Source: Candidatus Abyssobacteria bacterium SURF_5
GTDB taxonomy: Bacteria > Abyssobacteria > SURF-5
NCBI GenBank assembly: GCA_003598085.1
Contig: QZKU01000076.1
Coordinates: 1-41,438 of the forward strand
Length of the DNA: 41,438 nucleotides
Direction: 5' to 3'
The notes under the pieces are model-generated. The model was not told where the DNA came from, made no database searches, and saw nothing but the letters and a program-made list of their open reading frames with translations. Below are positions 1 through 7,876 of this stretch, one piece after another. How positions within the stretch are numbered: position 1 is the stretch's first letter; every line of letters begins with the position of its first letter. The position numbers and the translations under genes are program-made.

Positions 1-10
1 GCGGTTTCAT
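1..10 (-). CDS. Start of an unidentified gene, probably the major pseudopilin (partial)
   Basis: Only the first three codons (ATG AAA CCG, Met-Lys-Pro) lie in the window, read leftwards from position 10. The start is well supported: a long Shine-Dalgarno (15-25) precedes it and a perfect consensus promoter lies at 42-70. It follows pseudopilin, ATPase and gspF genes on the same strand. From the usual T2SS order, gspG (major pseudopilin) is the best guess, and a strong private promoter would suit a major subunit. The protein itself cannot be seen, so the identity is inference. Confidence 0.6.
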
Positions 11-14
11 AAAA

Positions 15-25
15 GATCACCTCCT
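15..25 (-). promoter_or_regulatory. Very strong ribosome binding site
   Basis: On the minus strand this reads AGGAGGTGATC, an eleven-base match to the complement of the usual 3' end of bacterial 16S rRNA. It ends four bases before the ATG at 10. This fixes the start of the partial gene and implies high translation. Confidence 0.85.
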
Positions 26-41
26 CTCATACTGTATTATT

Positions 42-70
42 ATTATATAACAGATTCGGAGAAATGTCAA
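42..70 (-). promoter_or_regulatory. Perfect consensus sigma-70 promoter
   Basis: On the minus strand, TTGACA (65-70) and TATAAT (42-47) are separated by exactly 17 bases. Both hexamers match consensus fully. Transcription should start near 35, giving a leader of about 25 bases before the ATG at 10. The promoter lies between gspF and the partial gene, so that gene can be expressed independently of the rest of the operon. Confidence 0.88.
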
Positions 71-363: not shown

Positions 364-1545
364 TCAACCGGCGATGGAGGTTATCTGGTCGATCAGCGAA
401 ACGTACGGCCAGAAGAAGGAGAGCGTCAGGAACAGAACCACAATACCAAGACCGAGGATCATGACAGGCTCGATCAGCGAGCGCAAGGTATTTACCGCCG
501 TTTCGACCTCTTTTTCGAAGATCTGCGACATTTGCCGGGAAACTTTCTCAAGGGAGCCCGACTCTTCTCCCGTTGCAAGCATGTCGGTGACGAGGGCCGG
601 CACCACCTTTGAGCGGCGCAACGGCTTTTCCAGGCCCTCGCCACGCTCGATGGACTCGCGCACCTGCTGGAGGTCTTTGGCGAATGCGGTGTTTCCCACT
701 GCCTCTTTCGTCAAGTCCAGCGTTTCGAGGATGGAGATGCCGGCGTTCAGCAGCGTGGCGAATGTTTGGGTGAAGTCGGCAACCACTTTTTTCGTCATCA
801 CCTCTCCGAAAACCGGCGCGCGCAGCTTGAAGTAATCGATCTGGAACCTTCCGGCCGGCGTTTTTCCGTACGAGATCACCAGCGCCGTCACGCCGACGAC
901 AAGGATCAGCCACAGCCACCACAGGTTCACCAGCCCATGTGAGAACGCAAGCGCCACTCTGGTAATAGCGGGAAGCTGAATGTCGAAAGAGCTGAACATG
1001 GACTCGAATTCCGGTATCACGACCACCAGGAAGAGAGTCAGAATCGCAAGACTCGCAATCAAGATAACAAAAGGATAAGCCACCGCCGATTGCACTTGTT
1101 TCCGCATGAAAGCCTTTTTTTCTCGATACTCGGCCAGATGCGTCATGATTTCGGTCAGCGTTCCCGATGTTTCGCCGGCCCGAATTATGCTGACAAACAA
1201 GTGGTTGAAATATCTCGGATGATGGGAGAGGGATTGCCAAAGCGTGTTTCCGGCTTCTATGTTATCGGCTACATCTTTTAGTACGGCGCCAAGGTTCTTA
1301 TTGGAGGTCCGCATGGCGAGCGTGTTCATCGCGCGGAGCAGCGGGACCCCCGCCTCGAGCAGCATGACCAACTGGCGCAGGAACGACGTTATCTGCTCTT
1401 CAGGAACGCGCCGCCCGGCAAGCGAGATGCTTCCGATCCGCGCTAAAACGGATGGCGGAGCCGCTGCTTTGGCTGGCTCGCCCTCAAGTTTGAGGCCGAC
1501 ATCGTCGCTCTGAGTTCTTCCGAGATTGACTTTTTGTTCTGACAT
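364..1545 (-). CDS. gspF: Type II secretion / type IV pilus inner-membrane platform protein, GspF/PilC family
   Basis: The 393-residue product has the length and two-repeat layout of GspF/PilC. This polytopic inner-membrane platform couples the cytoplasmic assembly ATPase to pseudopilin polymerisation. Two T2SSF repeats are visible: the first begins near residue 53 (FLRQLVMLLEAGVPLLRAM) and the second near residue 255 (FTQTFATLLNAGISILETL). Hydrophobic segments lie near residues 158-182 and 208-228 and at the C-terminus (IEPVMILGLGIVVLFLTLSF), as expected. The ATG is preceded by a G-rich stretch but only a weak Shine-Dalgarno. It lies 67 bases downstream of the second ATPase gene on the same strand. 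Neighbouring pseudopilins favour T2SS over type IV pili, but a hybrid filament system cannot be excluded. Confidence 0.93.
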   Translation of the reverse strand: MSEQKVNLGRTQSDDVGLKLEGEPAKAAAPPSVLARIGSISLAGRRVPEEQITSFLRQLVMLLEAGVPLLRAMNTLAMRTSNKNLGAVLKDVADNIEAGNTLWQSLSHHPRYFNHLFVSIIRAGETSGTLTEIMTHLAEYREKKAFMRKQVQSAVAYPFVILIASLAILTLFLVVVIPEFESMFSSFDIQLPAITRVALAFSHGLVNLWWLWLILVVGVTALVISYGKTPAGRFQIDYFKLRAPVFGEVMTKKVVADFTQTFATLLNAGISILETLDLTKEAVGNTAFAKDLQQVRESIERGEGLEKPLRRSKVVPALVTDMLATGEESGSLEKVSRQMSQIFEKEVETAVNTLRSLIEPVMILGLGIVVLFLTLSFFWPYVSLIDQITSIAG

Positions 1546-1612: not shown

Positions 1613-3166
1613 TCAGGCGCCGAGTGCCCGCAGCACTTCTTCCACGGTGGTTACCCCTGCGGCTACTTTTTGGGCGCCGCGATCTCTCATGAATTTTACC
1701 TTTTCGTCCGCGCTTGTTCGCGCAATTTCATCCACGGAGGCGCCAGCCACTATTTTCGCCTTTATTTCGTCGTCAATTTTCAGCACTTCGAAAAGTCCGA
1801 CCCGGCCATAAAAGCCGGTATGGTTGCAATGCGGACAGCCTTTTCCTCGGTAAAACGGACCGGCCGCCTCGAGCAGTTGTAATTCCGACAGCAGTTCCCG
1901 CGGCGGCTCATAGACCTCTTTACAGTGCACGCAGTTGGTGCGCACCAGTCGCTGTGCGATAACCACGTTCAGAGCGCTGGCAATCATGAACGACTTGATC
2001 CCCATGTGCCGCATCGCGGTGATGGTCTCCAGCGCGTTGTTCGTGTGCATGGTACTGAGCACCCGGTGTCCGGTAACGGCGGCGCGAACGGCGATATGCG
2101 CCGAATCATCGTCACGTATTTCTCCGATCATCAGCGTATCGATGTCCAACCGCAAAGCTCCGCGCAGCACGCGTTCGTACGACAGATCAGACGCTTTGCT
2201 GACCTGCACCTGGTTGACCCCTTTCAACTGAAACTCGACGGGGTCTTCGATCGTCACGATATTCTCGCTGAAATTGTTAAGGCTATTCAGAACCGCATAC
2301 AACGTAGTCGTTTTGCCCGAGCCCATCGGACCGGTAACCAGCAGCATTCCGCCCTTTCGCTTTACGAATCGGTCGATGACGCGTTGATCGGCCGGATCCA
2401 TTCCCAGTTCCTCGAGCTTTTTGCCGATGTTCGCCGACCCGATGAAACGGAGTACTAATTTCTCACCGAAATAGGTGGGTACAGTCGCGACGCGCAGGTC
2501 GTAATCGCGGGTGCCGATGCGAATCATGAAATGTCCGTCCTGCGGCGAGCGCGTATTGGTGATGTCCATGTTGCACAGTATCTTCAGCCGGCTGACGATC
2601 GCCGGTTCTATTCGCCGCGGCAAACCCAGAATATCGTAGAGCACTCCGTCGATTCGAAAGCGCACCCGCAGGATATCTTCCTGAGGATCGAAATGAATAT
2701 CGGTCGCTCGTGTGTTTACGGCTCCTCCAATGATTACGTTTATTGTTGTCACCGCCGAACTGCCGGCCGATTTCTCTTGAATCTGCTCGATCTCCTGCGC
2801 GAGCGACGCCTGCTGCGTCCCGGAAGCGCTCTGCCCGGCGGCGGGCGGGAAATACTGATCGATCATCTCCCGGATCTCTTCGGCGGGAACAAGAACTGGA
2901 ACAATCTCCATGGAACTGATGACGCGAAACTTTTCCAGGTTGCTGACCAGGGCGGGGTCGCCGAACGCGAGCCGCAGGATATTATTTGACCGGTTCAGCG
3001 GGAACACGCGGAAGTCGCGGATCACCTGTTCGGGTACGGCTTCGAGGGCGTCCGGATCCAGTTGATCCGATGCAGCTTCGATATATTCGATTTCCGGTTT
3101 CTCCGCAAGCCGCGAAACTTGTTTCTCGGCCAGTGCGTATCCTTTTTGAATAAGAATCTTTTTCAC
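1613..3166 (-). CDS. Second GspE/PilB-type assembly ATPase with N-terminal MshEN-like domain
   Basis: The product has 517 residues. The N-terminal ~150 residues resemble the T2SSE_N/MshEN domain. The hexameric ATPase domain follows, with Walker A GPMGSGKTTT near residue 275, an Asp box (EDPVEFQLKGVNQVQV) and Walker B DTLMIGEIRD near 342. A zinc-binding tetracysteine (CVHC near 410, CPHC near 440) completes it. It is the second of two ATPase genes in tandem. The family signature R-x-x-P-D before Walker B is altered here: it reads RLDID, with Ile in place of the invariant Pro. It could be a functional second motor, a heteromeric partner or a regulatory paralogue. The start is GTG with AGGGGA seven bases upstream. 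It powers or regulates pseudopilus assembly at the cytoplasmic face. Confidence 0.9.
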   Translation of the reverse strand: MKKILIQKGYALAEKQVSRLAEKPEIEYIEAASDQLDPDALEAVPEQVIRDFRVFPLNRSNNILRLAFGDPALVSNLEKFRVISSMEIVPVLVPAEEIREMIDQYFPPAAGQSASGTQQASLAQEIEQIQEKSAGSSAVTTINVIIGGAVNTRATDIHFDPQEDILRVRFRIDGVLYDILGLPRRIEPAIVSRLKILCNMDITNTRSPQDGHFMIRIGTRDYDLRVATVPTYFGEKLVLRFIGSANIGKKLEELGMDPADQRVIDRFVKRKGGMLLVTGPMGSGKTTTLYAVLNSLNNFSENIVTIEDPVEFQLKGVNQVQVSKASDLSYERVLRGALRLDIDTLMIGEIRDDDSAHIAVRAAVTGHRVLSTMHTNNALETITAMRHMGIKSFMIASALNVVIAQRLVRTNCVHCKEVYEPPRELLSELQLLEAAGPFYRGKGCPHCNHTGFYGRVGLFEVLKIDDEIKAKIVAGASVDEIARTSADEKVKFMRDRGAQKVAAGVTTVEEVLRALGA

Positions 3167-3194
3167 GTGCTTCCCCTGAAAAGACGGCGAATCC

Positions 3195-4505
3195 TTAGAA
3201 CCTCAACACCCTGAAAACCTCATCCACGCTGGTGGTTCCCTCAAGAATTTTATTTACGCCTTTCTCGAACAGGCTCTTCATCCCTTCGGAATGTGCTGTT
3301 TTGACAATCTGTTCTATCGATCTTCCGTCGATAATCGCCCTCTTGATTGATGGAGTGAGCCGGAGGAGCTCATAGACGGCCGTGCGCCCGAGATAGCCCG
3401 TCTTATTGCAGGCATCGCATCCGCTTGCCCGGTAGAGCTTCTCGGGCTTCTCCTTCACTTCCAGTTCCTTCACCAATTCGGGTTCAGGCTCATATGGCTC
3501 CCGGCACTGGGTGCACAGCTTTCGAACCAGCCTCTGAGCGAGGATACACAGCAGCGAACTGGTGATGAGGAACGGGCGAACATTCATATTGACAAGCGTA
3601 TTGATTGCATCCGGGGCAGTATTGGCGTGAATTGTGCTGAAGACACGGTGCCCTGTCATAGCGGCCCTGATGGCGATTGCGGCTGTTTCCAGGTCGCGAA
3701 CTTCGCCCACAAGGATCGTATCGGGATCCTGTCGCAGAGAGGCGCGCAAGGTGCTGGCGAAAGTAAGATCGATGGCGGGATTGATCTGAACCTGGTTAAC
3801 CCCCTTCAGTTGATACTCGACCGGGTCCTCGAGGGTGATGATATTATAAGTGCGGTAATTGATGCGCTCGAGCGCCGCATAGAGCGTGGTTGTTTTCCCC
3901 GAGCCGGTAGGGCCGGTAACCAGCGTCATTCCCTGCGGCTTCGTGATAATATCTTCGAAAATCACTCGATCGGAATACTCCATTCCCAATTCCTCGAGCT
4001 TTGGGATTCCGCTGGTCGAATCCAGGAGGCGCAGCGTCAGTTTTTCGCCGCGAAACGTTGGAAGCGCGGACACTCGCAGATCAAAGCGGTTGTTTCCGCT
4101 GGTCATCGAGATATGGCCGTCTTGCGGTCTTCGCGTCTCGGAGATATCCATCTCGCCGAGCACTTTGACGCGGGCCACGATATTGGGCTGGATTCGCTTG
4201 GGGATAGTCAGCACGTCGTGCAGCATCCCGTCGATTCGAAGCCGGGCGACCATCCCGCTCTCGCTGGGGTCGAAGTGGATGTCGGTTGCTCGAGAGGTAA
4301 CGGCCAGATCGAAAATAGCCGAAACCAGAACCACCGGCTGAATATTCTCCACGGAGCCCCCGATTTGCTTGAGAAGCTTCTGCCGCAGCGTCTCGCCGGC
4401 GGCGGAAGCGCGCTGTTCCAGCAAGAGCTCCTTTTCCAGCCGCTGCTGAATGGTATCCTCGACTTTTTCCGCCAATGCTGCGCCTTTTTCTGCTGATTCA
4501 TTCAT
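3195..4505 (-). CDS. gspE: Type II secretion assembly ATPase GspE, short N-terminus
   Basis: This is the canonical motor ATPase: Walker A GPTGSGKTTT near residue 200, Asp box EDPVEYQLKGVNQVQI, signature LRQDPDTILVGEVRD near 255, a His box (STIHANTA) and a CxxC pair (CTQC, CDAC). From the chosen ATG at 4505 it has 436 residues. It has only about 60 residues before the ATPase core, so the N-terminal MshEN domain that binds GspL in classical GspE is missing. The ATG at 4505 is preceded by GAGGAG at a nine-base spacing. The longer reading from 4610 would overlap gspK by 62 bases and lacks such a site. It lies 28 bases upstream of the second ATPase gene, so the two are co-transcribed. Confidence 0.92.
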   Translation of the reverse strand: MNESAEKGAALAEKVEDTIQQRLEKELLLEQRASAAGETLRQKLLKQIGGSVENIQPVVLVSAIFDLAVTSRATDIHFDPSESGMVARLRIDGMLHDVLTIPKRIQPNIVARVKVLGEMDISETRRPQDGHISMTSGNNRFDLRVSALPTFRGEKLTLRLLDSTSGIPKLEELGMEYSDRVIFEDIITKPQGMTLVTGPTGSGKTTTLYAALERINYRTYNIITLEDPVEYQLKGVNQVQINPAIDLTFASTLRASLRQDPDTILVGEVRDLETAAIAIRAAMTGHRVFSTIHANTAPDAINTLVNMNVRPFLITSSLLCILAQRLVRKLCTQCREPYEPEPELVKELEVKEKPEKLYRASGCDACNKTGYLGRTAVYELLRLTPSIKRAIIDGRSIEQIVKTAHSEGMKSLFEKGVNKILEGTTSVDEVFRVLRF

Positions 4506-4548: not shown

Positions 4549-5397
4549 TTAAATGTTTTCCCAGGACTCAATATGAATCCGTCCATCCTGATGGCGTTTG
4601 ATGACGGCATTAATCTTTCTGTTGCTCACAGTCCGGACTCCTTGCAGCACCGACCCAACCGATTCAACCCGAAAGACGCTGCTGTTGACAGTTATCAGCG
4701 GCAGGGCCGGAGCGACTCTGACCGGCGTCAGGCCTGGCGTCTTCACGAGATCAGCAGGTGCGGCAAAAACGAAATCGTCCGCAGTTCCATCGATTCCATC
4801 CACTCCCTTGCGGAATTCAACGATAATCTGACCCGCCTCTGCGTCCATTCCCGGCAGCGCCGCAAGAACATCGGCGCCGGCTGTATTGATATTGACTTTA
4901 TCCGTTCCGGCGACAGTCCCAAGACTTAACAGCTTCGAGAGCACGTCGGCCTTCAAGTCGGCGGCCACAAAATCGTCGATCGCATGCAGTTTTCTGGAAC
5001 TGCGAAAACTCAGAACAGCCGCGAGCGCCTCAGTATCGGCTCCCACCAGAGTTCCCAGGGTCTGCGGCGAGGCAGTCAGAACATTGATGCGCGAAGATTC
5101 GTCCGTAACGATCAGCCGGTATCCGCCATCGCCGAGCCGCGTCATTTCCGGCGAGGTCCCTGTCCACCAGGGGTCTACGGAAGAATCGGTGAGGGGAGAA
5201 TCAAGGCTCAGCCGCGAGACTGCATCCTGAACCCCCGCCATCGCGAGATAATGCGCCTGCAACTGCTGGGCGTCGCGAACGGCATATGCGGCTTCCAATC
5301 TCATATGAGCAAGGAAGACGCTGCCGAGCAGGCCGAGAATCACCAATACGCCGAGAGCCGTGAGTAATGCTACGCCTTCGCGTCCTCGAACCTTCAC
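4549..5397 (-). CDS. gspK: Minor pseudopilin GspK-like (tip of the T2SS pseudopilus)
   Basis: A short basic N-terminus precedes REGVALLTALGVLVILGLLG, a prepilin-type hydrophobic helix. The residue five places after the likely cleavage site is Thr, not Glu. Loss of Glu5 is characteristic of GspK, which caps the pseudopilus. Two helical regions follow, the second with an HhH/SAM-like motif (VNINTAGADVLAALPG). At 282 residues it is slightly shorter than usual. I chose GTG at 5397 because GGGAGGGG lies five bases upstream. A TTG at 5415 in the same frame is possible and would add six residues. It follows gspJ by 18 bases. Confidence 0.85.
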   Translation of the reverse strand: MKVRGREGVALLTALGVLVILGLLGSVFLAHMRLEAAYAVRDAQQLQAHYLAMAGVQDAVSRLSLDSPLTDSSVDPWWTGTSPEMTRLGDGGYRLIVTDESSRINVLTASPQTLGTLVGADTEALAAVLSFRSSRKLHAIDDFVAADLKADVLSKLLSLGTVAGTDKVNINTAGADVLAALPGMDAEAGQIIVEFRKGVDGIDGTADDFVFAAPADLVKTPGLTPVRVAPALPLITVNSSVFRVESVGSVLQGVRTVSNRKINAVIKRHQDGRIHIESWENI

Positions 5398-5415
5398 GCC
5401 GTCCCCTCCCTTCAA

Positions 5416-6132
5416 TCAAATCGCCTGCGCCGCCGGCACATTGACGCTTATCCGAAACGGCGTCGGCTGAGCCGATATGCCTCGAAGGATATACACGGTT
5501 ATCTCAAGAGCCGCCGGTAACGATGCCGAAGCTGTCGTTCCCTCCTCACCGGGAGTCGCCGGCTTGTTTTCGGGCGGCCACTCCTGGACCCATTCCGGCG
5601 GGTTCTGCGAGCTGTCCAGATATTTCACGTCGAGCCCGACGGCATCGGAAAGCAAAGACTCGCACAGTCCGCTCTCGGGCGGCGCGCCAATCGGCGATCG
5701 GGTCTGCAGCAGACCTCGCGGCGAGTCATCCCCATCCGGCGACAGCTCCAGTCGGTACTCCATTTTCTGTATCGATCCCAATCCGGCATATCGGCTATCG
5801 AAAATCGGAAATCTCAGTTCGTCGGCCGGAAAAACGATGCCGCCTGCTTCATATGAGCCATTCTTCCCCCTGAATTTGACGGCGTCGATCGGGGAGGGAT
5901 GGGTTTGTCGAACCATATCGGAAATTGTTCCGAGCGCCCGCCTGGTTTCCGGATATTGCGCTGTGGATTTTTTGGCGCGGGCCATCGAGCCAAATGATTT
6001 GAAGACACTCGGGATCGCCACGGACATGAAGATGCCAAAAATGGCTATTACAACCAGCAACTCGAGAATTGTCATTCCGGATTTCAACTTCGCTAATCGC
6101 ATCACCATTCTCTGTTTTCTCCCGCCGTTCAT
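5416..6132 (-). CDS. gspJ: Minor pseudopilin GspJ-like
   Basis: This prepilin-like protein of 238 residues has the cleavage/methylation motif SG-MTILELLVVIAIFGI near residue 20, with Glu at +5. The C-terminal half carries a GspJ-type pattern: LLSDAVGLDVKYLDSSQ, then a Trp-rich segment, then LPAALEITVYI. GspJ joins GspI and GspK in the tip complex that primes pseudopilus assembly. The start shares TGATG with the stop of gspI, suggesting translational coupling. ATG codons at 6108 and 6102 are alternatives, since GGGAG lies ten bases before the former. Assignment to J rather than H rests on the pattern and on the I-J-K order. Confidence 0.8.
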   Translation of the reverse strand: MNGGRKQRMVMRLAKLKSGMTILELLVVIAIFGIFMSVAIPSVFKSFGSMARAKKSTAQYPETRRALGTISDMVRQTHPSPIDAVKFRGKNGSYEAGGIVFPADELRFPIFDSRYAGLGSIQKMEYRLELSPDGDDSPRGLLQTRSPIGAPPESGLCESLLSDAVGLDVKYLDSSQNPPEWVQEWPPENKPATPGEEGTTASASLPAALEITVYILRGISAQPTPFRISVNVPAAQAI

Positions 6133-6710
6133 CAGCGAACCGCCAATGCGGTAACTATATGAAGCGCCTCTTTCCCCTGAACGATCTCACTCGAGCCGTC
6201 TTCGCCAGGTTGGATCAGGGAAAATCGTTTCCGGTCGTCAGAAAGGAAAAACTCTGGTTCCGATGAAACAGCGCCCCCTTTCACCTCTCTGCTGGTAATC
6301 GCGTAAACGTGCAGTGTGATTGTCGCCAACTTCGGGTTATGCGAGGCCGGCAAGATTTCGGCTATCCATCGAAAAGAGCTCACTTCAGAAGAATCCAGCG
6401 AGAAGTCGCGGAATCTGCCGGGAAAATCCTGGAGGAGACGCGGCCCGCCAGTTTGGGCGAGGGCCGTCTGCGCCGGGAAATTTCGCAGGATTTCTTCCAT
6501 TTGATTTTGCGCCAGGATCTGCGCCAATTCGCTTCCTCGAGCCTTTTTCGACAGGTCGAGGCCCCCCATGAAAAACTGGGCAAACCCGGTGACGGCTATC
6601 TGGAGGATCAGGAGCGCGATGATGAGCTCAAGGATTGAGAGGCCGCTTGACTCGGAGAGGGGGGCAAAGGAAAAGCGATTACGCGAGGCGGATCGTTCTG
6701 TCTTTATCAT
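6132..6710 (-). CDS. gspI: Minor pseudopilin GspI-like
   Basis: The product has 192 residues with a long N-terminal leader of about 23 residues before the prepilin motif SG-LSILELIIALLILQIAV (Glu at +5). Next comes ELAQILAQNQMEEILRNF, a pattern typical of the GspI/PilV group. It is expected in the inner membrane and, after peptidase cleavage, in the pseudopilus tip with J and K. The ATG is preceded by AAGGAG at an eight-base spacing. It lies 46 bases after the GAF-PAS gene on the same strand, so the secretion genes are probably transcribed from the promoter upstream of that gene. A PilV-like role in a pilus is the alternative. Confidence 0.78.
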   Translation of the reverse strand: MIKTERSASRNRFSFAPLSESSGLSILELIIALLILQIAVTGFAQFFMGGLDLSKKARGSELAQILAQNQMEEILRNFPAQTALAQTGGPRLLQDFPGRFRDFSLDSSEVSSFRWIAEILPASHNPKLATITLHVYAITSREVKGGAVSSEPEFFLSDDRKRFSLIQPGEDGSSEIVQGKEALHIVTALAVR

Positions 6711-6756: not shown

Positions 6757-7746
6757 TCAGACCTCATTGAGGACGGCGACCGTCCCTATTTTCATTCCGT
6801 TTGGATCGATGACGGGGGCGACATCAACTTGTACTTTCTTTCCCCCATCTTGTCCCAATTGTACAACCTCTTTCACCGGCTTCGCTTGATCAAAGGCAGC
6901 CTGGAGCAGAGACGAGATGCTTTTGTCCGCTTTCAGTTCCGCTATATCCCGAGTTGTCACTGCATCGCCATTCGAAAAACCGAGCAATTCCCTCGCGATA
7001 GTATTGATCATGACCAGCTCGCCGCTCTCGTCCGTCATGAGCGCTCCCGACTTGAGCAGGTCGCAGATGTGTTCCAATGAATATTGAATGGCAGCGAACA
7101 GGCGCGCATTTTGCAGCGCAATTGCGGCCGTATTGGCGAATGCGGAGAATATATCCAAATCTTCCTCCGACAGCGGACCGCTATAGCCGGCATTCAGGAC
7201 CTCGATAACGCCCACGATTTTGTCACGCAGCTTTATGGGCACGCACATAATGGATTTTGTCTCGAATCCGGTAGCCAGATCGATCGCCCTTTCCCACCGC
7301 TGATCTCTCTCCGCATCCGATACCACGATCGGTTGACCGGTCAGGGCTACTTGCCCCGCGATTCCCTGCCCCATTTTCAGGCGAAACTCCTGCACCTGCT
7401 TTCCTTTTTCACCGAGGGCAATCTTAAAAACCAGCTCGTTTGTGCGGTCGTCCACGAGCATCAAGCTGCTGTCTTTGGCTTTCATTACTTTTGTTGCGCA
7501 TGCCATCAGATACGTGAGTAATTGATCGAGATCGAGGGTTGAATTGATGCTGCTGCCGACGCCGATCAAGGTTGACAGCCGCTCGATCTTCTCCTCAAGC
7601 TTTCTGCGAGTCTGCTGCAGCTCCTGCTTGAGTATCTTGAGCTGATCCTCCCGCTGCGAGATCTCGCGTTTGCAGACTTGAATCTCCTCCTCCCGACTGC
7701 GAAGAGTATCTGTGAGGAGTTTGAATTCTTCGTGATCAACGGTCAT
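6757..7746 (-). CDS. Coiled-coil GAF-PAS signalling protein without output domain
   Basis: This 329-residue soluble protein has an N-terminal coiled coil (about 5-60, rich in Glu, Gln and Lys). A GAF domain follows (about 60-215; IAGQVALTGQPIVVSDA and SIMCVPIKLRDKIVGVIEVLN are typical). A PAS-like domain completes it (about 225-325; GALMTDESGELVMINTIARELLG). There is no histidine kinase, GGDEF, HD or DNA-binding domain. The start at 7746 has GGAGG eight bases upstream; an in-frame TTG at 7761 is less likely. As first gene before the pseudopilins it may sense a small ligand and act through protein contacts on secretion or on a partner kinase. That role is inference. Confidence 0.85.
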   Translation of the reverse strand: MTVDHEEFKLLTDTLRSREEEIQVCKREISQREDQLKILKQELQQTRRKLEEKIERLSTLIGVGSSINSTLDLDQLLTYLMACATKVMKAKDSSLMLVDDRTNELVFKIALGEKGKQVQEFRLKMGQGIAGQVALTGQPIVVSDAERDQRWERAIDLATGFETKSIMCVPIKLRDKIVGVIEVLNAGYSGPLSEEDLDIFSAFANTAAIALQNARLFAAIQYSLEHICDLLKSGALMTDESGELVMINTIARELLGFSNGDAVTTRDIAELKADKSISSLLQAAFDQAKPVKEVVQLGQDGGKKVQVDVAPVIDPNGMKIGTVAVLNEV

Positions 7747-7876
7747 CAGAGTTTCCTCCAATGGTAGAGGGGCATTCTTTCGGACGCATCCACGAGAGAC
7801 GCGCCCCGGATGGATGTGATAGGATTGTTACTCGTTAAAGATATGTTCAAACTAATTGCACCAGCCGCGTGCCGGG

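Follow-up and report, generated by a model that had tools for sequence, protein, structure and literature searches.

A conserved tandem pair of assembly-type ATPases in a single-platform pseudopilus operon of Candidatus Abyssubacteria

The motors that assemble type IV filaments are normally described as rings of a single protein. In the genome of the deep-subsurface Candidatus Abyssobacteria bacterium SURF_5 (G000; 5,103,455 bases in 145 contigs) an operon with one platform gene carries two adjacent genes for assembly-type ATPases, here called E1 and E2, and this raises the question of how two motor proteins and one platform protein (F) belong together. The operon lies in what we call the window, the whole stretch of 41,438 nucleotides that we analysed, which is the entire contig C76. 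On the minus strand the genes are ordered GAF/PAS, I-like, J-like, K-like, E1, E2, F (Table 1), with gaps, taken from the coordinates, of 43 bases between K and E1 and 28 bases between E1 and E2. An initial annotation, made from the sequence alone, had described two tandem GspE-type ATPases followed by only one gspF, and this is borne out: the two reading frames are there, and each has a Pfam T2SSE match (E1 with E 5.3e-120, E2 with 8e-124). The contig ends 363 bases beyond F, which limits the downstream view in this genome; in the other family genomes the gene downstream of F is HU-like and on the same strand (G002) or lies on the opposite strand (G001). At the contig edge, on the minus strand of window positions 1-65, a perfect-looking TTGACA-17-TATAAT promoter is found together with AGGAGG and an ATG, and the gene begun there reads off the contig.

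Table 1. Genes of the window operon and the main evidence for each
Feature	Coordinates	Strand	Evidence
GAF-PAS protein, first gene in the conserved order, possible sensor/regulator	6757..7761	-	74-75% identity in both other family genomes
I/PilV-like minor pseudopilin	6132..6710	-	TIGR02523 32.6 bits, below cut-off; blast matches to I-type pseudopilins
J-like minor pseudopilin	5416..6132	-	N-methylation motif
K-like minor pseudopilin	4549..5415	-	T2SSK match; prepilin helix without Glu5
E1, assembly-type ATPase without N-terminal MshEN/GspE_N domain	3195..4505	-	436 aa, RQDPD, STIHANT His box
E2, assembly-type ATPase with one partial MshEN module	1613..3166	-	517 aa, GTG start, GPMGSGKT, RLDID
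F, GspF/PilC-type platform protein, the only one in the operon	364..1545	-	domain/family matches

Both E1 and E2 carry the features of the GspE/PilB superfamily, namely the T2SSE domain, Walker A, the Asp box, the Walker B Glu, the His box and four zinc cysteines. E1 has canonical motifs, as first annotated, and no N-terminal domain: its RQDPD was confirmed and the Pfam search returned no MshEN match. Starting at 4610 would make E1 overlap the K-like gene; the start at 4505 does not, and orthologues of E1 begin at the equivalent position. In E2 the MshEN match is confined to residues 26-110, and a longer N-terminus is impossible because the stop-to-stop frame has only 529 codons. Of the MshEN-like N-terminus ascribed to E2, what stands is a partial module; the 24-residue c-di-GMP-binding MshEN motif, even in a relaxed form taken from the accessible part of PMC5013675, is absent from all three E2 sequences, as it is from all three E1 sequences. 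The AlphaFold2 model of E1 (mean pLDDT 83) has a low-confidence helix at residues 4-48, and that of E2 (mean pLDDT 79) has an N-terminal module at about residues 26-105 with a poorly predicted linker after it. The cores of the two models match 5tsh_E with TMt values of 0.91 and 0.92, their best matches being PilB/GspE structures. Searches of solved structures and folds confirmed the PilB/GspE fold and gave nothing further, and a plasmid search returned general GspE matches only. Since each protein has a complete ATPase core, we rejected the idea that E1 and E2 are one split or frameshifted gene.

The curated family models place neither protein in a named subfamily. Against the T2SS GspE equivalog TIGR02533 (cut-off 630.25 bits) E1 scored 494.7 and E2 471.9, these two being the proteins scored, with E. 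coli GspE and the GspE of contig C25 from the same genome outside the comparison. The scores were likewise below the cut-off for T4P PilB (TIGR02538, 675.65 bits; E1 476.4, E2 480.0) and for TfpB (NF053534, 850 bits; E1 422.4, E2 388.1). For PilT/PilU (TIGR01420, 319.1 bits) they were far below it (E1 187.0, E2 136.3), in agreement with the annotated view that neither protein is PilT-like, and on these family scores a pair of the PilB + PilT type was rejected.

A quick tree of 100 rows placed E1 and E2 in a clade with ATPases of G278, G130, G267, G365 and G014 (support 99). In a careful tree of 51 rows the E1/E2 clade comprised 14 rows (support 100/98) and was separate from E. coli GspE, from the C25 GspE and from the genome's own PilB. 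Grouping E1 with the GspE clade was rejected (p-AU 0.007), for E1 only and with a group that had been picked after viewing the tree. The initial annotation had called for this phylogeny and named placement in separate, well-known subfamilies as the outcome that would speak against its reading; that outcome did not occur, as the two ATPases fall into one clade. The best tree makes E1 and E2 sisters with support of just 60/27, at which sisterhood is neither shown nor rejected, so that duplication inside the operon and acquisition from within the clade are not separable.

We inspected the gene surroundings of eight members of this clade that have a single ATPase. In four of them (G130, G267, G337 and G014) a lone ATPase of 720-751 residues sits in a unit made of three minor-pseudopilin-like genes, the ATPase and a platform, I-J-K-E-F, with no secretin; G130 and G267 belong to the same phylum, which is represented by two genomes. 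The pseudopilin calls in these units combine weak family matches, mostly below curated cut-offs, with a prepilin helix recognised by eye; one of ten proteins from the relatives' units was without any match in the family search, and for G014 the I- and K-like assignments were made by eye alone. Three other members (G099, G365 and G237) have the order E-F with a PilT-type gene close by and no adjoining pilin, and in G278 the ATPase is solitary. The long single ATPases have about 300-370 residues ahead of the core, with one MshEN match each. Among the clade members examined, two ATPases are found in Abyssubacteria only. Because four of the eight single-ATPase members sit in a one-motor I-J-K-E-F unit, the E1/E2 pair is, on this comparison of sequences, a lineage-specific doubling of the motor of that unit, by duplication or by acquisition within the clade. 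The units at loci L171, L174, L176 and L209 come from four genomes and have different flanking genes.

The order GAF/PAS-I-J-K-E1-E2-F is kept in all three genomes of the family, each a different genus. Identity between orthologues is 77-79% for E1, 73% for F and 68% for E2, and 61% for K (one comparison), 49-57% for J and 44% for I (one comparison). All three genera share GPMGSGKT and RLDID in E2 and RQDPD in E1, and 81 of 431 aligned columns are constant inside each set of three sequences and differ between the E1 and E2 sets; both copies have therefore been retained as different proteins over three genera. Surveyed across genomes, as the initial annotation had proposed, the pair is present in 3/3 family genomes, and no E1 orthologue was found outside the family in a search of 386 genomes with E1 (34 genomes matched at the 1e-117 limit; among the matches listed, those outside the family had identities of at most 52%). 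The part of the Ca. Abyssubacteria paper that is accessible (PMC6121073) contains no mention of pili or a pilus.

The contrast between RLDID in E2 and RQDPD in E1, to which attention had been drawn at the outset, is thus real and fixed, but the altered signature is less special than was first assumed, and reading it as a functional defect is not supported. Leucine replaces the Gln of RQDPD in 25 of 156 rows, of which seven are copies of the three E2 orthologues and the other 18 retain the proline. The proline, which is I in E2, is replaced in four of eight single-ATPase relatives (V in G337, A in G130 and G267, I in G278), and the residue following the Walker A proline, M in E2, is I or V in five of seven. 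Since RL and the lost proline both recur in relatives, they do not signal a loss of activity, and RLDID as a unique lesion was rejected. In both proteins the residues of Walker A, Walker B and the His box are intact, as are the arginine and zinc-cysteine residues. Measured on columns invariant among seven clade relatives, E1 lost 14 of 114 and E2 13 of 114, and leaving out one relative at a time gave losses of 3-17 of 117-131 for the relative omitted; on a looser set, with the same residue in at least six of the seven, E1 lost 35 and E2 26 of 175. Other lists of invariant columns, which E1 and E2 keep by construction, were excluded from the evidence. With the catalytic residues kept and invariant-residue loss no greater than in relatives, we also rejected the view of E2 as a decayed pseudo-ATPase. 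In its motifs E2 follows the manner of its clade and E1 is the canonical form; neither looks decayed, and both are predicted to bind and hydrolyse ATP.

The operon had also been discussed with the T2SS in mind, and here a correction is needed: no secretin, GspC, GspL, GspM or major pseudopilin was seen in the operon in the three family genomes, and the window operon is not a complete T2SS. Nor is there a PilT-type retraction ATPase within the window operon. Elsewhere in this genome, a secretin-bearing cluster of T2SS type on C25 includes a gspE, a gspF and pseudopilin genes of its own, and C68 holds a cluster for a type IV pilus; the gene names in both come from reading the ORF sequences, with Pfam matches backing E, F and the secretin only.

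We propose, with confidence evenly balanced for and against, that in a minimal I-J-K-E-F pseudopilus unit E1 and E2 serve as two kinds of motor subunit, acting jointly on one platform and, in the simplest case, forming a mixed ring. The initial annotation had offered a mixed hexamer or a motor with a regulatory partner, of which the mixed hexamer is plausible. An I-J-K tip complex would prime the filament, which would be drawn from the inner membrane by the single GspF-type platform F. In the distant relatives one long ATPase would drive the platform; in the family the motor gene would have been doubled. E2 would have retained the clade's motif features together with a docking module, now shortened, at its N-terminus, and E1 the motor core and a predicted N-terminal helix only. 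The two would most likely cooperate on F, the simplest arrangement being a mixed ring anchored through its E2 subunits only, and other loci would supply a shared major pilin and, where there is one, a shared secretin. Since two intact-looking motors replace one, and E1 is without a docking domain, the pair may be a natural two-part motor. We count in favour of a joint motor the 3/3 conservation, the common clade, the single motor of the relatives, the fixed differences between E1 and E2, the one F, the intact residues, a loss of invariant residues in the range of other clade members and the PilB/GspE fold of both model cores. Against it we count the 60/27 support for E1-E2 sisterhood, the sample of three genomes only, the low confidence of the E1 helix and the nearest experimentally tested precedent, PilT and PilU, which were found as two separate homohexamers (accessible text of PMC6821130).

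That same precedent speaks for a rival in which E1 and E2 form two separate homohexamers, alternating or working in series on one platform, so that one starts filaments and the other extends or retracts them. A division of labour has been proposed for PilB and TfpB as well (PMC11656802, in the part of the text available), and to judge from their sequences E1 and E2 each look self-sufficient. However, E1 lacks the N-terminal docking domain, which makes recruitment of an E1 ring a difficulty, and a PilT-type partner for retraction is missing from the operon; we take this possibility seriously and lean against it. It is unlikely that E2 is chiefly a regulator of E1 and itself a weak ATPase, even though E2 evolves faster (68% against 77-79% identity), has the altered GPMGSGKT and RLDID and alone retains an N-terminal module of sensory type, since its core catalytic residues are retained, its invariant-residue loss is not above that of E1 (13 against 14 of 114), similar motif changes occur in single-motor relatives and the c-di-GMP motif is absent. 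Very improbable is a neutral recent duplicate without special function, which confinement to one family might suggest (nothing above 52% identity outside the three genomes among the matches listed for 386 genomes) but which conservation of both copies, with fixed differences, in three genera contradicts.

The pair and its operon are real, conserved and unusual in detail, and are made of known parts. With the GspE of T2SS, whose N-domain binds GspL, E1 and E2 share the ATPase core, the tetracysteine zinc motif and I-J-K-F-type neighbours, but they lie below the equivalog cut-off and outside the GspE clade (by the p-AU value, for E1), the window operon has no GspC, D, L, M or G, and E1 has no N-domain. 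The ComG operon is likewise a compact set of ATPase, platform and pilin genes with no secretin; unlike the window operon, it includes a major pilin and has a single ATPase. PilT and PilU are likewise two related ATPases on one platform, but of the retraction type, whereas E1 and E2 are of the assembly type by score and by their C-terminal zinc motif. The nearest published case is the PilB and TfpB pair of Acinetobacter baylyi, for which PMC8213720 is the primary paper. The two proteins of that pair, which are phylogenetically distinct, are both extension motors of one T4P (PMC11656802, in part) and resemble E1 and E2 as two assembly-type ATPases serving one filament system; E1 and E2 differ in being adjacent, in one clade, in a pseudopilus operon and far below the TfpB model. 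A literature search on tandem or second PilB/GspE genes, made mostly on records short of full texts, found neither the E1/E2 pair nor the I-J-K-E-F unit. Duplicated subunits have been argued to mix initially in one ring (PMC6711533), and whether related ATPases mix in this way is a question raised in print (PMC6711533 and PMC11656802, both in the parts available). Because they have a shared platform, complementary N-termini, fixed divergence and single-motor relatives, E1 and E2 are a clean natural system for testing ring mixing in assembly motors. The I-J-K-E-F unit, repeated in unrelated neighbourhoods, would itself be a very small version of a pseudopilus machine.

Adjacent assembly-ATPase pairs, tallied by eye in 60 genomes, occur in eight of them: the three family members (two pairs each), G020, G027, G030, G031 and G039. 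One further adjacent pair is at L086. In six of eight pair lineages, the window pair and that of G039 being the other two, the first Asp of RQDPD is replaced in one partner (by S in the own C25 pair, G020 and G030; by A in G031 and G027; by N in L086), whereas among 116 ATPases that have no adjacent partner this loss was counted in 4 (Fisher p ~1e-6, shared ancestry not corrected for). The lineage tally omits some of the 29 rows marked as tandem: L006, L131, L132 and L133, in which E2 appears again, truncated at the end of a locus, and L004, a repeat of the C25 partner from the same genome. As to the four exceptions, G130 and G267, examined post hoc, have an operon of S-type ATPase, PilT, canonical ATPase and PilC, whereas neither L107 nor L123 (Patescibacteria) has another assembly ATPase within 4 kb. 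A second ATPase within 4 kb was found for none of 65 non-paired ATPases with at least 4 kb visible on both sides.

The pair of an RQSPD and a canonical ATPase occurs in all three members of the family and in four other genomes (G000:C25:22480-26030, which is L042 14481-18028, and L161, L162, L211, L212, L215 and L216). In a separate quick tree the five S-type proteins group together (98), as do their canonical partners (84), and the pair has the look of an old two-ATPase pilus system whose members were inherited jointly. The E1/E2 pair is a case separate from it. A stronger form of the joint motor would have E1 and E2 as an obligate mixed hexamer with one docking-bearing subunit type, one of several independent origins of two-subunit motors that include the RQSPD + canonical pair; we offer this tentatively and rather doubt it.

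In L086 (9544-11226, an Omnitrophica MAG) the second ATPase is without the Walker B GExRD, reading ISQIND, and is likely an inactive partner. A solitary assembly-type ATPase of about 420-433 aa with no N-terminal domain and with RQDPE is conserved in the three family genomes (G000:C73:14138-15292, which is L008; L048 9263-10564; L167 1184-2452), and no pilus gene was recognised beside it in the two neighbourhoods L045 and L048. Tandem pairs with RHAPD and RQAPN partners, in L213 (G031) and L214 (G027), lie outside the RQSPD clade.
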